Source: Actinomycetes bacterium (GTDB lineage Bacteria > Actinomycetota > Acidimicrobiia > Acidimicrobiales > Acidimicrobiaceae). Taken from it: a stretch of 35,206 nucleotides of DNA. Position numbers and translations under genes: made by a program. Below, piece by piece: positions 1 to 5,401 of the stretch. Where the stretch lies: contig JAKCBW010000008.1 in assembly GCA_021842145.1 (NCBI GenBank), positions 1 to 35,206 on the forward strand. The letters are read 5' to 3'. How positions within the stretch are numbered: position 1 is the first letter of the stretch; each line of letters opens with the position of its first letter. The notes under the pieces were generated by a model. It did not search any database. It was not told the DNA's origin and saw nothing but the letters and a program-made list of their open reading frames with translations.

Positions 1-946
1 CTGCGTCGATGATTTCGTAGGTGGACCTATCTGAAAGTACGCCATGCTGGTGAATGCCGGATTCATGGGCGAAGGCGTTACGTCCCACGACCGCCTTGTT
101 GTATTGAATGGGATAACCAGTCAATCGAGAGACGAGCCTCGAGGTCCGATTTATCTCTTCGGTGTTGATGTTGGTCGTTAAGTTGGCAAACAGGTCAGCC
201 CTGATCTTCGTTGCCATTACGACCTCCTCTAACGACGCATTTCCCGCCCTTTCGCCCAGTCCATTGACGCAAACTTCAACCTGGCGGGCTCCGGCTTGAA
301 TTCCAGCGAGGCTATTTGCCGCCGCAAGTCCAAGGTCGTTGTGGCAATGTGTCGAGATGATGTAGTTGCCCCTGACGTTTTCGGCAACATATCGGATAAG
401 GTCGCCAAACTCCCACGGGATGCCATATCCTACGGTGTCAGGGACGTTAAGGGTTGTCGCTCCGGAGTCAACCGCCTCTTGGAGGACCTCGATCATGAAA
501 TCAAGTGGAGTTCTCGTGGCGTCTTGGGGTGAAAACTCTACGTCGTCGGTATGGTGGCGAGCCCGGGACACTGCTGACCTGGTCTCCTCGAGAACTTGGG
601 CCTGGTCCATTTTAAGCATATGTTCCATATGGCTGGGGCTCGTTGATATGAAGATGTGTATGCGAGCCTTGTCTGCGTCTTTTACCGCTTCCCAACAACG
701 ATCCACGTCTGCGAGGTGGGTTCTTGACAATCCTGCGATTGCGGGGCCATGAACGCTTCTTGCTATCGCCTGAACTGCTTCAAAGTCTCCCTGTGAGGAG
801 ACTGGAAAGCCGGCCTCGATATAGTCGACACCGAGACGTGCTAGCTGTTCGGCGATTTCAAGCTTCTCGTGTACATCCAATGAGATACCGGGGGACTGTT
901 CCCCGTCTCGCAATGTCGTATCGAAGATTACTAGCCTCTCGGCCAT
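1..946 (-). CDS. leuA: 2-isopropylmalate synthase, C-terminus beyond the window
   Basis: This enzyme condenses acetyl-CoA with 2-oxoisovalerate, the first committed step of leucine synthesis in the cytoplasm. The visible 315 codons read from the N-terminus: [13 protein letters not shown] (metal and substrate loop, about residues 8-20), the EAGFP motif, [11 protein letters not shown] (metal-binding His pair), [14 protein letters not shown], and [14 protein letters not shown] at the edge. The TIM-barrel domain is intact; the LeuA dimer domain lies outside the window. The N-terminus resembles the shorter bacterial LeuA type, not the long mycobacterial type. The ATG at 946 follows GGAGGA at good spacing. 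The leader upstream holds a leucine attenuator (1000-1107), so expression is likely to respond to charged leucyl-tRNA. serA lies upstream on the same strand. A homocitrate or citramalate synthase is possible, but the attenuator argues for leuA. Confidence 0.95.
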
Positions 947-999
947 CGGATCCTCCAATTGGAACGTGTCTAGGACCTATACCCTTTCAAAACACCAAT

Positions 1000-1030
1000 A
1001 AAAAACCTCCTGGCCAGGGGCACAGGAGGT
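1000..1030 (-). terminator. leuA attenuator terminator hairpin
   Basis: Arms 1023-1030 and 1005-1012 form an 8-bp perfect stem (ACCTCCTG with CAGGAGGT) around a 10-nt loop, followed on the minus strand by a run of six T. It lies between the leader peptide and the leuA start, so it would stop transcription before leuA unless it is prevented from forming. Confidence 0.85.
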
Positions 1031-1032
1031 CG

Positions 1033-1056
1033 AGCGAGCGTCGTAGGGCGCTCGCT
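1033..1056 (-). promoter_or_regulatory. leader hairpin preceding the leuA attenuator
   Basis: AGCGAGCG (1049-1056) and CGCTCGCT (1033-1040) are perfect complements around an 8-nt loop. The first arm overlaps the stop codon of the leader peptide, so a ribosome in the leader would cover it. In addition, TATACCCTT inside the leader peptide (1068-1076) is complementary to AAGGGTATA beyond the terminator (977-985), a long-range pairing that encloses both hairpins. I could not identify a single clear antiterminator stem. Confidence 0.6.
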
Positions 1057-1094
1057 TAGGTAAGAAGAAGGGTATAAGCCAAAGACTTAATCAT
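1056..1094 (-). CDS. leucine-rich leader peptide of the leuA attenuator
   Basis: This 12-codon frame reads MIKSLAYTLLLT and stops with TAA. It has three consecutive CTT Leu codons plus one TTG, and it is followed at once by a hairpin and then a terminator. This is the classic layout of ribosome-mediated attenuation: stalling at Leu codons when leucyl-tRNA is scarce would alter folding downstream. No Shine-Dalgarno is seen. A TATAGT -10 hexamer ends 8 nt before the ATG, which suggests a leaderless transcript starting at or next to the A of the ATG. Confidence 0.75.
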   Translation of the reverse strand: MIKSLAYTLLLT

Positions 1095-1101
1095 TGATTC
1101 G

Positions 1102-1110
1102 ACTATAGCA
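1102..1110 (-). promoter_or_regulatory. leuA promoter, extended -10 element
   Basis: On the minus strand the sequence reads TGCTATAGT, an extended -10 (TGn plus TATAGT), with the leader-peptide ATG 7 nt further on. No consensus -35 is visible at 17 bp spacing, because that position falls in the loop of the palindrome at 1109-1147. An extended -10 can compensate for a missing -35. Confidence 0.6.
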
Positions 1111-1333: not shown

Positions 1334-2911
1334 TCAAGATTGGTGATTACAGGTAACCGCCTTGGCATAGAGGATTCCTGGGGTATCGGCAATCTTCTGG
1401 ACGGATTCTTGCGGAATCTCCTCGTTTAGCGAAATTACCATTAGGGCCGAGCCGTCGTTGTTGGATGGGCTCACGGCCATCGACGAGATAGAAATGCCCG
1501 CTTCGCCGATGATCGTCCCTACTACGCCTATCTTGCCTGGCTTGTCGTCGTTCCGAACGACCAACATGTAGGTTGCTGGCGGAATCTCGACGGGATGTCC
1601 GTCGACTCGAACGATACGGGGCTCTCCCTTGATCCCGGTTATCGTCCCAGCTACTTCATGCTCCTTGCTCCTTAGGGTGATTAGAGATACGAAATCCCTC
1701 GATGTCGGGCTAGTCGTCTCTCTGACCTCGAGGCCCCTCTCTTGTGCGAGTTGCGGGGCATTGACGAAGGATACCGGATCGTCGGTCGCTTCGGAAAACA
1801 CCCCTTTCAGCGCCGAGAGGGTCAACAGGCGGGTATCATCCTCCGCAATTGGGCCCTGATACTCAACCTCCAACACCGAGGGCAGACCACCCGACATCGA
1901 CGCCAAGAATCTCCCCAAAGATTCGGCGATTGATAAAAATGGCCTCGAAGATTCCGACGCTTCAGCGGCGTCGACGTTGACGGCAAATGGTACAAAATCT
2001 CCAGCGAAAGCTAGAAGGAGCTGCTCAGCTATGGTAACGCCCGCTTTGTCCTGGGCTTCTGTCGTAGATGCTCCAAGGTGAGGCGTGACGACGACCGAGG
2101 AGAGCTCAAATAGGGGAGATTCGGTCATTGGCTCGGAGGAAAATACATCGAGAGCGGCTCCGGCTATGGTCCCATCTTGGATTGCTTCTGCGAGGGCATT
2201 TTCATCAATTATTCCGCCACGAGCGGCATTTATGATTCGCAAAGACGGCTTGGCCTTGGCCAGTAGGTCCTTGTTAATTAGTCCGGAGGTCTCCTTGTTC
2301 TTTGGAAGATGGATCGTTACGAAGTCAGCTTCAGCTATTAGCTCTTCGAGTCCCATCAACTCGACCCCCATCTTTTTTGCCTTCTCTTGCGAGACGTAGG
2401 GATCGTAAGCGACCAATCTCATTCCAAAGGCGAGCGCTCGTTGTGCGACGAGTGCTCCAATCTTTCCGAGTCCGACTACTCCGAGGACCTTGCCGTAGAG
2501 TTCGACCCCTTCCCACTTGGACCTTTCCCACTTTCCGTTCACCAGGGCGCTGTGGGCTTGAGGGATATTTCGCGCTTGAGATAGAAGAAGCGCCAGGGTG
2601 TGTTCGGCGGCCGAAAGTATGTTGGACTGGGGGGCATTTACCACCATGACGCCGCGCTTTGTGGCGTATGGAACATCAACGTTGTCGAGGCCAATCCCGG
2701 CCCTTCCAACTACTTTGAGAGAGGTGGTGGAGTCGAGGACCTCCTTGGTCACCTTTGTTGCGGATCTGATTATCAATCCCTCTGCCGTCTTGATCTCGCC
2801 CAAAAGTTCTTCGGGGGACAGACCGAGTTTAATGTCTACTTGGTGACCGGCTTCTCTAAGCTTATCGAGGCCGATATCTGCAATCTCTTCAGTAACGAGT
2901 ATCCTTGCCAT
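1334..2911 (-). CDS. serA: D-3-phosphoglycerate dehydrogenase
   Basis: It oxidises 3-phosphoglycerate to 3-phosphohydroxypyruvate with NAD, the first step of serine synthesis. The 525 residues match the long type-1 form with an N-terminal substrate domain, a Rossmann fold (GVVGLGKIGALVAQ, about residue 145), the catalytic region AARGGIIDE, DVFSSEP and PHLGASTTEAQ, then an allosteric substrate-binding domain and a C-terminal ACT domain (from about residue 450, MLVVRNDDKPGKIGVVG) that usually binds serine as a feedback signal. The ATG at 2911 has only a weak upstream GGCAGG. Its position before leuA resembles the ilv-serA-leuA order common in Actinobacteria, but here the pxp operon stands in place of the ilv genes. 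Confidence 0.97.
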   Translation of the reverse strand: MARILVTEEIADIGLDKLREAGHQVDIKLGLSPEELLGEIKTAEGLIIRSATKVTKEVLDSTTSLKVVGRAGIGLDNVDVPYATKRGVMVVNAPQSNILSAAEHTLALLLSQARNIPQAHSALVNGKWERSKWEGVELYGKVLGVVGLGKIGALVAQRALAFGMRLVAYDPYVSQEKAKKMGVELMGLEELIAEADFVTIHLPKNKETSGLINKDLLAKAKPSLRIINAARGGIIDENALAEAIQDGTIAGAALDVFSSEPMTESPLFELSSVVVTPHLGASTTEAQDKAGVTIAEQLLLAFAGDFVPFAVNVDAAEASESSRPFLSIAESLGRFLASMSGGLPSVLEVEYQGPIAEDDTRLLTLSALKGVFSEATDDPVSFVNAPQLAQERGLEVRETTSPTSRDFVSLITLRSKEHEVAGTITGIKGEPRIVRVDGHPVEIPPATYMLVVRNDDKPGKIGVVGTIIGEAGISISSMAVSPSNNDGSALMVISLNEEIPQESVQKIADTPGILYAKAVTCNHQS

Positions 2912-3113: not shown

Positions 3114-4004
3114 TTAGTTATCGCCCAGCTTGAGTGTTACTCTGTCACCCGGCCGTATCTGGGCTGCTAGGTCCGTCGAGCGCGGGTCTAAGGCTCCAAC
3201 GATTGGGTATCCACCGGTAGTCGGGTGATCGGCTAGAAATAAGACCAACTCTCCCGATGGGGGCGCTTGGAGAAAACCGCGCAATATCCCCTCCGGTTCA
3301 ACGTGGAGGTTTGGCTCGGGGCTCAATTCGGCTCCCGAGAGGCGGATGCCAATTCGGCTCGCATCTTTGGAAGCTATTAGCTCCCTATTTGCCAATTTAG
3401 AGATCGAGTTCCGTGTGAAGTGCCGACTTCTAGGACCCCACCATCCAGTGAGGTCGAAGTGGTCGCTTATTCCATCCGTAGCCGCTAGTTCAAAGGGAAT
3501 TTCCACAGCTAAATCAGTCTCTTGGATTGCGACTCGGTCTCCTTTTGACAACGGTGCCGGTCCTAGCCCAGATAGCGTATCCGATGATGACGAACCTAGG
3601 TATGGTTCTCCATATAAGCCGCCTTTGATAGCCAAGTAACTCCGTAGTCCGTATTGAGGCACCTCAAGGGAGACCGTATCCCCTCGTCTGACGAGGTGGG
3701 CGTAGTTGAAAGAGCAGGGTCTATCGGCAATGGTCAGACTTTGTATGGCGCCGGTGACCGCGATTATGGCGCTGCTGTGAAACTGAATCTGGCAAGGTCC
3801 ATAGAGGATCTCAAGGGCCGCCAGGTGCTGCGGGTTACCCACTAACCGATTGGCGAGTCTAAAGCTTGCTTGATCGCACGCTCCCGATGGTGTGACGCCC
3901 ATCCAACTGTATCCAGGGCGTCCAAGGTCCTCGATGAGTAGCTGGGGCGGAGCGGTGATAATTTCAAGGTAGTTTTCCAAGTAGTTGTTCTGGATCTCCG
4001 TCAC
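3114..4004 (-). CDS. pxpC: 5-oxoprolinase subunit C (biotin-dependent carboxyltransferase fold)
   Basis: PxpC is the KipA/AHS2 subunit of the ATP-dependent PxpABC 5-oxoprolinase, which opens pyroglutamate to glutamate. Family hallmarks include LIEDLGRPGYSWMGVTPSGACDQ near the N-terminus, the RLVGNP segment and GELVLFLADHPTTGGYP near the C-terminus. I take GTG at 4004 as the start: it overlaps the pxpB stop codon in GTGA, a translational-coupling arrangement, and gives 296 residues, starting just before the conserved N-terminus. An upstream ATG at 4079 is in frame but lies deep inside pxpB. It is the last gene of the pxpA-pxpB-pxpC operon. Confidence 0.9.
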   Translation of the reverse strand: MTEIQNNYLENYLEIITAPPQLLIEDLGRPGYSWMGVTPSGACDQASFRLANRLVGNPQHLAALEILYGPCQIQFHSSAIIAVTGAIQSLTIADRPCSFNYAHLVRRGDTVSLEVPQYGLRSYLAIKGGLYGEPYLGSSSSDTLSGLGPAPLSKGDRVAIQETDLAVEIPFELAATDGISDHFDLTGWWGPRSRHFTRNSISKLANRELIASKDASRIGIRLSGAELSPEPNLHVEPEGILRGFLQAPPSGELVLFLADHPTTGGYPIVGALDPRSTDLAAQIRPGDRVTLKLGDN

Positions 4005-4618
4005 CAGATCCTTCTCTCCACAAATCGCACACGGTCGCCGGGCTGAAGCAGTGCTGGTTCTGGCGCTGATGGGTCCCAAAGATTCAGTTCAGTTCTTCCG
4101 ATCAACCTCCACCCTCCTGGCGAAGGGTTTGGATAGACGGCGCTGTAGCTTTCGGCAATAGCAACCGCACCCTTTGGAACTAACCCTCTCGGTGAGCTAA
4201 GCCTTGGCAACTCAAGTGAGGGATGGAGGCCCACCAGGTAGGCAAAACCGGGGGCAAAGCCGAGGAATGAGACCGTGTATGGAGCTGCACAGTGCAAGTC
4301 GATCACCTCCCGCACCGTCAATCCGGCTAATGCGGCAGTACTATCCAGGTCTAGGCCGTCGTAAACGGTGGGGATTTCAATGTCCTTTTGGTCCCGACCA
4401 CCTGCTATAGCTCCAACGTCGTTTAGCATTTCGGCGATGGCACTGCTGGTTATCGCAACTTGTTCAGCCGCTTTGATGACGATGGTATCGGCGCCGAGGA
4501 TGACCTCCTCGAAGAGGTGGGGGATCCCCATTCTGAGGTACTTGAAACTGGCGATGACCAGATCTGAGGTGTCAAAGTCGACTATAAAAGCATTTGGGCC
4601 GATTGAATAGATCTTCAT
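4001..4618 (-). CDS. pxpB: 5-oxoprolinase subunit B (allophanate hydrolase subunit 1-like)
   Basis: This is the KipI/AHS1 subunit of the 5-oxoprolinase complex; it forms a heteromer with PxpC. The 205 residues include FLGFAPGFAYLVGL (about residues 118-131) and the conserved PRGLVPKGAVAI, PNPSPGGWRLIGRT and LLQPGDRVRF segments typical of the family. It starts 6 bp after the pxpA stop and overlaps pxpC by 4 bp, so the three genes form one transcription unit. The Bacillus homologue KipI also inhibits a sensor kinase, but the complete pxpABC set here points to oxoproline metabolism. Confidence 0.92.
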   Translation of the reverse strand: MKIYSIGPNAFIVDFDTSDLVIASFKYLRMGIPHLFEEVILGADTIVIKAAEQVAITSSAIAEMLNDVGAIAGGRDQKDIEIPTVYDGLDLDSTAALAGLTVREVIDLHCAAPYTVSFLGFAPGFAYLVGLHPSLELPRLSSPRGLVPKGAVAIAESYSAVYPNPSPGGWRLIGRTELNLWDPSAPEPALLQPGDRVRFVERRIW

Positions 4619-4624
4619 GTGGAT

Positions 4625-5401
4625 TTATGGAGCCTTGACTGTAATTCCAATGGAGCTCAGGCGTTTCTTTACAGCAGCCAAAATTTCAGGTGCGCCGGTA
4701 GTGTCGCTGTGCACGCAAAGTGAATCTATCGTAGCGGTTGGTTTCCATGCGGAAGGGTGGGGCAAGTCGAAACCTTGAGCGAGGGCTTGTGCCTGGTTGG
4801 CCGCCAAGGTTGGGTCTTTGATTACCGAGTCCTCCTCAGATCTCGGAGCAAGGGTTCCATCGCTTAGGTACCTCCTGTCACAGAAGCCTTCGTGTAGGGT
4901 CTTGATGCCCCTTCGATTCGCTTCGAAGGCTAAGGCGCTACCTGGCTGCGTGAGAATGTAAAGGTCTCGATCGAAGTCATAGACGGAGTTGACGACGGCT
5001 GCCGATTGTTCGTGGTCGCTAAAGCACCTGTTATAGAGGGCCCCGTGGGGTTTTACATAGCTAATCGTCGCATCGTGCTTAGCTGAAATAGCGTAGAGTG
5101 CCCCTATCTGATAACTAATGTCATCGGAGAGATCGTCGGGGGAGATATCCTGTCGTCTTCTGCCAAAACCGAATATGTCCCGATATCCAACCTGCGCCCC
5201 AATCCTAATCCCGAGCGCCTGGAGCTTCTTGACGGTGTTCGACATAATCTGTGGGTCTCCAGCGTGGAAGCCACAGGCTACATTTGCAGAGGTTATGTAG
5301 GGGAGTATCGCATCATCGTCGGATATGCGATAGGGTCCAAAACCTTCTCCGAGGTCCGCGTTGAGGTCCAAAGGAGTGCCCCCGTCAGAAATGTAAGCCA
5401 A
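4625..5401 (-). CDS. pxpA: 5-oxoprolinase subunit A (LamB/YcsF family)
   Basis: PxpA works with PxpBC to hydrolyse 5-oxoproline, a spontaneous glutamine and glutathione damage product, to glutamate. The 258 residues begin with DLNADLGEGFGPY (about residues 12-24), followed by SANVACGFHAGDP and, further on, VKPHGALYN, all hallmarks of the LamB/YcsF family. The protein has the usual family length and is the first gene of the operon, followed 6 bp later by pxpB. No strong promoter could be picked out upstream. Confidence 0.95.
   Translation of the reverse strand: MAYISDGGTPLDLNADLGEGFGPYRISDDDAILPYITSANVACGFHAGDPQIMSNTVKKLQALGIRIGAQVGYRDIFGFGRRRQDISPDDLSDDISYQIGALYAISAKHDATISYVKPHGALYNRCFSDHEQSAAVVNSVYDFDRDLYILTQPGSALAFEANRRGIKTLHEGFCDRRYLSDGTLAPRSEEDSVIKDPTLAANQAQALAQGFDLPHPSAWKPTATIDSLCVHSDTTGAPEILAAVKKRLSSIGITVKAP

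Follow-up and report, generated by a model that had tools for sequence, protein, structure and literature searches.

Leaderless leucine leader peptides before leuA and leuS are already known from Streptomyces, and the element analyzed here is of this kind. The S. lividans counterparts, LeuL1 and LeuL2, were found to be leaderless by RNA-seq (PMC8079986), as was the ilvB leader of C. diphtheriae (PMC5784534). For leuA of most Actinobacteria, a LEU element has been described that comprises a leucine leader, a pseudoknot and base pairing between the Leu codons and the Shine-Dalgarno sequence, its mechanism being left unclear; the same study assigns attenuators of the classical type, having both an antiterminator and a terminator hairpin, to leuS of two Streptomyces species (PMC1262725). 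The locus presented here departs from the known kind in having a terminator before leuA, in matching no Rfam family and in that no fold exclusive with its terminator was found.

The window, i.e., the whole stretch of 35,206 nucleotides that was analyzed, comes from an Acidimicrobiales MAG of 2.0 Mb in 206 contigs that is 76% complete. Acidimicrobiales is an order of soil and water bacteria. The element is located on the minus strand in the gap between serA and leuA, and its parts are listed in Table 1. The leuA product matched HMGL-like (2.5e-91) and 2-isopropylmalate synthase models (up to 3.4e-153).

Table 1. Features of the serA-leuA gap and of the flanking genes in the window.
Feature	Position	Strand	Evidence	Remarks
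serA	1334-2911	-		upstream of the leader, same strand as leuA
Extended -10, TGC-TATAGT	1102..1110	-	sequence	TG precedes TATAGT (1107-1102); 7 nt separate TATAGT from the leader ATG
Leader peptide ORF MIKSLAYTLLLT*	1056..1094	-	sequence and homologous ORFs	predicted leaderless or near-leaderless
CTT CTT CTT, Leu codons 9-11	1062..1070	-	sequence and relatives	presumed control codons
Hairpin P1 (AGCGAGCG / CGCTCGCT)	1033..1056	-	arm complementarity, covariation	from the last base of the stop codon; arms 1056-1049 and 1040-1033, 100% complementary
Terminator hairpin P2 (ACCTCCTG-T-GCC-CCT-GGC-CAGGAGGT)	1005..1030	-	complementarity, covariation	8-nt arms 1030-1023 and 1012-1005, 100% complementary; 3-bp inner stem beyond a one-base bulge at 1022
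U-tract (T6) of the terminator	1000..1005	-	sequence; conserved in the alignment	first T forms the basal pair of P2 with A1030
Covariance model match (element core)	1000..1067	-	E 3.4e-14, 68.9 bits	window among the model-building sequences
Long-range pairing, upstream arm (leader codons 3-9)	1068..1086	-	complementarity	genus-local
Long-range pairing, downstream arm, past the terminator	968..986	-	complementarity	genus-local
leuA Shine-Dalgarno, GGAGGA	951..956	-	sequence	
leuA, 2-isopropylmalate synthase, 5' part, cut by the window edge	2..946	-	family models	starts at ATG 946; first 315 codons within the window

A sequence-only reading of this DNA had described a Leu-rich leader ORF, an extended -10 and a terminator with a U-tract, and all three were found on the minus strand where it had placed them; a second hairpin, P1, had been overlooked. 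The leader ORF (ATG ATT AAG TCT TTG GCT TAT ACC CTT CTT CTT ACC TAA) encodes 12 residues, and no Shine-Dalgarno sequence precedes it in the window. Upstream of the -10 in the window no -35 was recognizable, and a consensus promoter scanner called no promoter. Likewise, a consensus scanner reported no terminator at P2, the bulge and the length of the loop being the probable reasons.

Some further features of the surroundings were noted. A 19-nt inverted repeat at 1106-1150 (95% complementary, 7-nt loop) touches the -10 from upstream, at the place expected for a -35. Most of it is retained in L004 and L005, and similarly placed repeats of other sequence occur in L028, L029 and L031; it is possibly an operator or a hairpin at the end of serA. 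Between serA and the leader, a second inverted repeat at 1165-1201 has perfect 12-nt arms and a 13-nt loop, and was not seen in the upstream sequence of L033. At 3114-5401 of the minus strand, genes of the carboxyltransferase A/B, carboxyltransferase C/D and LamB/YcsF families stand in a row, a composition that, judged by these families, would be that of a 5-oxoprolinase (pxp) cluster.

The conservation of the leader was assessed in 106 leuA upstream regions (94 distinct). A simple pattern identified a terminator in 78, and 77 of them had a leader ORF too. The relatives include Acidimicrobiaceae and other Acidimicrobiia MAGs whose LeuA proteins are 99% (L033), 96% (L034) and 86% (L036) identical. 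In the 77 distinct leuA upstream regions the leader ORFs are 10-17 codons long, most often 12 or 13, with a mode of 12. The peptides mostly end in LLLT, the residue after the Leu run being sometimes G, S, M, I or R, and in some clades they end in LLLL or LLLSLL. In nearly all relatives, whether leuA type I, leuA type II or leuS lies downstream, the Leu run ends one codon before the stop codon or at it. The distance from the stop codon to P1 is 0-2 nt in all 77 leaders, and a gap of 0-6 nt separates P1 from P2 in the predicted folds. P2 has a mean energy of -18.9 kcal/mol over the 77 leaders.

Covariation was analyzed in 36 diverse sequences, with an alignment built from sequence and not fitted to structure. 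All nine consensus pairs of P1 and 7 of the 11 of P2 were changed on both sides, with 95.9% of the P2 cells paired. When the two hairpins were taken jointly, 16 of 20 pairs were changed on both sides in at least one sequence and 95.1% of the cells were paired. None of 500 shuffles reached the observed value on any measure, and sliding the partners by 1-3 columns reduced the pairing to 38-49%. RNAalifold recovered both hairpins independently. No Rfam family matched the leader region, either at the gathering threshold or at E up to 1, and a literature search on attenuators of Acidimicrobiia found none. A comparative study of amino-acid attenuators by Lopatovskaya et al. from 2010, to which PMC10272879 refers, may already list some of these leaders. 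Three sequences upstream of leuA (L103, L104 and L105) have an eroded Leu run, and the CTTAGGTAG motif and the hairpin that follows it persist; Shine-Dalgarno pairing in them is at chance level.

A covariance model of the element core was used to follow its distribution. The locus in the window is the sole match in its own genome. At E <= 0.01 the model matched 230 of 298 genomes of the order (185 of the 226 of good quality) and 48 of 396 genomes drawn from the phylum, 22 of these 48 being outside the order. Downstream genes were inspected at 78 loci, chosen as the best-scoring ones and not as a random sample; L158 and L183 are the same place, which leaves 77 distinct loci. By classes assigned from short motifs, the downstream gene was leuA type I at 32, leuA type II at 25, leuS at 5 (six rows, five places), ilvB at 12 and another gene at 3. 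Family searches on representatives confirmed leuS, acetolactate synthase and 2-isopropylmalate synthase. The two leuA types are only distantly related. Among the last six residues, the leaders before leuA and leuS have about three Leu, and those before ilvB, which were cases in other Actinobacteria, have Val, Leu and Ile as control residues. As leuA and leuS have only leucine in common, the association is the strongest indirect evidence for sensing of charged Leu-tRNA. The proposal that a leucine leader peptide and a terminator precede leuA is supported by 77 related leaders, covarying hairpins and an order-wide spread, and by the occurrence of this element before both leuA types and leuS. A weaker model match was observed in L167 (711-783) before a gene for an aminotransferase, with aspartate-glyoxylate aminotransferase as the best family; the leader there is without a matching amino-acid run, and the match is possibly due to chance or to an unrelated terminator.

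The promoter survey covered the 76 relatives with enough upstream sequence. In 51 of the 76, TTGAC occurs at -48 to -24 relative to the leader start; the background frequency was 16 in 642 windows. Placing a -10 hexamer 16-19 nt past TTGAC was possible in 52 relatives, with a composition biased by the placement, which was chosen by the best -10 score within fixed spacing; in 51 of the 52 the hexamer ends 6-11 nt upstream of the start codon, and the transcript leader would therefore be roughly 0-5 nt long. The leader peptide is thus predicted to be translated from a leaderless or near-leaderless transcript, as had been suggested from the sequence of the window, and this prediction agrees with the promoter spacing and, by analogy, with the S. 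lividans RNA-seq data.

In a classical attenuator, the terminator would be opposed by an antiterminator. The upstream pairing of the P2 5' arm was computed by equilibrium folding with a transcript ending before the P2 3' arm and with assumed ribosome footprints. Such thermodynamic folding of the 77 leaders, with or without ribosome masks, yielded no antiterminator exclusive with P2. The median gain of the P2 5' arm from upstream partners was -1.4 kcal/mol without a mask, against -18.9 kcal/mol for P2, and -0.2, -1.9 and -2.3 kcal/mol with the ribosome masked at the first Leu codon, the last Leu codon and the stop codon, respectively. Kinetic folding or a protein could alter this result. Pairing of the Leu codons with the 3' arm of the terminator was also considered as an antiterminator and was rejected: the pairing is weak and its logic is wrong, since stalling would promote termination. 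As no exclusive antiterminator was found, our claim is of an attenuator-like working and not of a canonical three-hairpin attenuator, and the earlier description of the sequence as direct evidence of ribosome-mediated attenuation went too far.

Judging from the comparative evidence, the element is very probably a leucine-responsive, ribosome-mediated transcription attenuator, the direction of regulation included. This conclusion is based on the ORF, the control codons, P1, P2, their spacing, conservation and covariation, and the association with leucine genes; from these we infer the 5' end, the ribosome steps and the manner in which P1 would weaken P2. RNA polymerase would start at the leader ATG or a few bases from it, and a ribosome would load on the 5'-terminal, or nearly 5'-terminal, start codon. 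When Leu-tRNA is charged, the ribosome would pass the Leu codons and reach the stop codon, where its footprint would cover the P1 5' arm; P1 would be blocked, P2 would fold and transcription would end before leuA. The same stop-codon masking logic has been proposed for ilvB1 of M. tuberculosis (PMC13236596). When Leu-tRNA is short, the ribosome would wait 2-4 codons upstream, P1 would form and read-through of P2 would rise.

P1 and P2 share no bases. P1 may act from its position 0-6 nt upstream by hindering the closing of the lower P2 stem at the polymerase. On the other hand, P1 may be a pause hairpin, with the bulge of P2 lying 10-14 nt past it and usually followed by G. The pauses of E. coli leuL and hisL combine a hairpin with the consensus G-10 Y-1 G+1 (PMC9291695). 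In 69 leaders, 10-14 nt (mean 11.9) separate the end of P1 from the bulged base of P2, and in 58 of these 69 a pyrimidine followed by G is found at the bulge; G at position -10 of the pause consensus was not enriched (12 of 69). We tentatively consider it possible, at somewhat less than even probability, that attenuation proceeds here without an exclusive antiterminator, that a stop-codon hairpin within 0-6 nt of the terminator is the switch, by hindrance or by pausing, and that leuA, leuS and ilvB share a portable module in which only the control codons change.

An attenuator of the classical three-hairpin type, whose antiterminator is weak or overlaps only in part and escapes the energy models, would have the same gross order of leader peptide, hairpin and terminator. 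It could find a precedent in the boundary-trinucleotide model of C. glutamicum ilvBNC, in which antiterminator and terminator share only three bases (PMC11857589). However, P1 and P2 have no conserved overlap, separated as they are by the short gap described above, either arm of P2 gains little energy from upstream pairing, and lineages with a GGGGG in the P2 3' arm keep Leu codons (CTGCTG) that pair poorly with it. We hold this explanation to be rather unlikely. The switch favored in the sequence-only reading, in which a ribosome stalled at the Leu codons breaks a helix between TATACCCTT and AAGGGTATA, rests on a pairing that does exist in the window: the 19-nt arms are 79% complementary, the core pairs at 13 of 13 positions with G-U allowed, and the duplex energy was reached by none of 100 shuffles (z -2.96). 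The core retains 12 and 11 of the 13 pairs in the next two species; in L004 one pair is preserved by a double change (U-A to C-G), and L005 has two mismatches. Yet pairing was not above chance in L006, the fourth species of the genus (z -0.36), nor across 76 leaders (mean z -0.39), and as a conserved switch it was rejected, fading beyond the two nearest relatives. Moreover, the downstream arm is transcribed after the terminator, so the pairing cannot decide termination, and it leaves the leuA Shine-Dalgarno sequence uncovered. We regard the pairing as genus-local and probably not the switch, a role for which we see very little probability.

The LEU element of Seliverstov 2005 would imply translational control, perhaps with a bound protein, through a pseudoknot whose base stem is formed by the Leu codons and the leuA Shine-Dalgarno sequence. 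Gene, Leu leader and phylum are all the same as here, and pairing of Leu codons with the Shine-Dalgarno sequence is strong in the terminator-less Acidimicrobiia leaders L098, L099 and L110, where fractions of 0.000, 0.005 and 0.000 of 200 shuffles, respectively, were recorded. In the terminator class, however, this pairing is no better than in shuffled sequences (median fraction 0.39; 0.10-0.18 in the close relatives of the window). No sign of a pseudoknot was seen in the leaders studied here, and the short and variable P1 loops make one unlikely; besides, the terminator present here is absent from the published leuA elements. The LEU element is therefore an improbable account of this locus. 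It could also be argued that there is no regulation at all, P2 serving only to terminate serA or spurious transcripts and the ORF being incidental, given that serA lies upstream on the same strand. This we find scarcely credible: the promoter and the Leu-rich ORF sit between serA and P2, and codon content, the spacing of P1 to the stop codon and covariation are kept across the order, before leuA, leuS and ilvB.

The three terminator-less leaders are of interest in their own right. Located between the end of an ilvC-like gene and leuA, they carry a Leu run followed by a hairpin at the stop codon, and the start codon of the L098 leader shares bases with the stop codon preceding it (ATGA). They are apparent translational cousins, and the designs with and without a terminator may share a core of leader plus P1 with different outputs.

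With the element read as an attenuator of leucine genes, a leucine attenuator absent from Rfam would be spread across the order, in bacteria that are known almost only from metagenomes. One module of leader, hairpin and terminator appears to move between the leuA types, leuS and ilvB, and if the portable-module interpretation is true, a change of the control codons alone would let it serve all of these genes. The question is also raised whether a non-overlapping hairpin beside a terminator can act as an antiterminator, which is relevant beyond this genome, since the literature leaves the control of leuA in Actinobacteria uncertain.

Among the known systems, the Proteobacterial Leu leader of the trp type resembles the element in its control codons, terminator and leucine gene, while differing from it in that here no Rfam match, no 2:3 antiterminator and no Shine-Dalgarno sequence before the leader ORF were found. 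With the LEU element, the gene and the Leu leader are shared, whereas here a terminator is present and pairing between Leu codons and the Shine-Dalgarno sequence is not supported (PMC1262725). The ilvB attenuators of Corynebacterium and Mycobacterium are alike in combining a short BCAA peptide, a hairpin and an intrinsic terminator (PMC11857589, PMC10272879, PMC13236596), and those of C. glutamicum and C. diphtheriae are leaderless or nearly so, like the prediction made here. In the models of these ilvB attenuators, however, the antiterminator overlaps the terminator; no such antiterminator was found here, and the control codons here are Leu only. The S. lividans leaders LeuL1 and LeuL2, before leuA and leuS, share Leu-run peptides of 12-15 residues that are leaderless there by RNA-seq (PMC8079986). 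A hairpin and a U stretch follow LeuL2 at leuS, as they follow the leader here, whereas the S. lividans leuA leader is without the typical terminator that is present before leuA in the window (PMC8079986). Finally, the distance from the Leu run to the stop codon is one codon here and four or more in S. lividans (PMC8079986).
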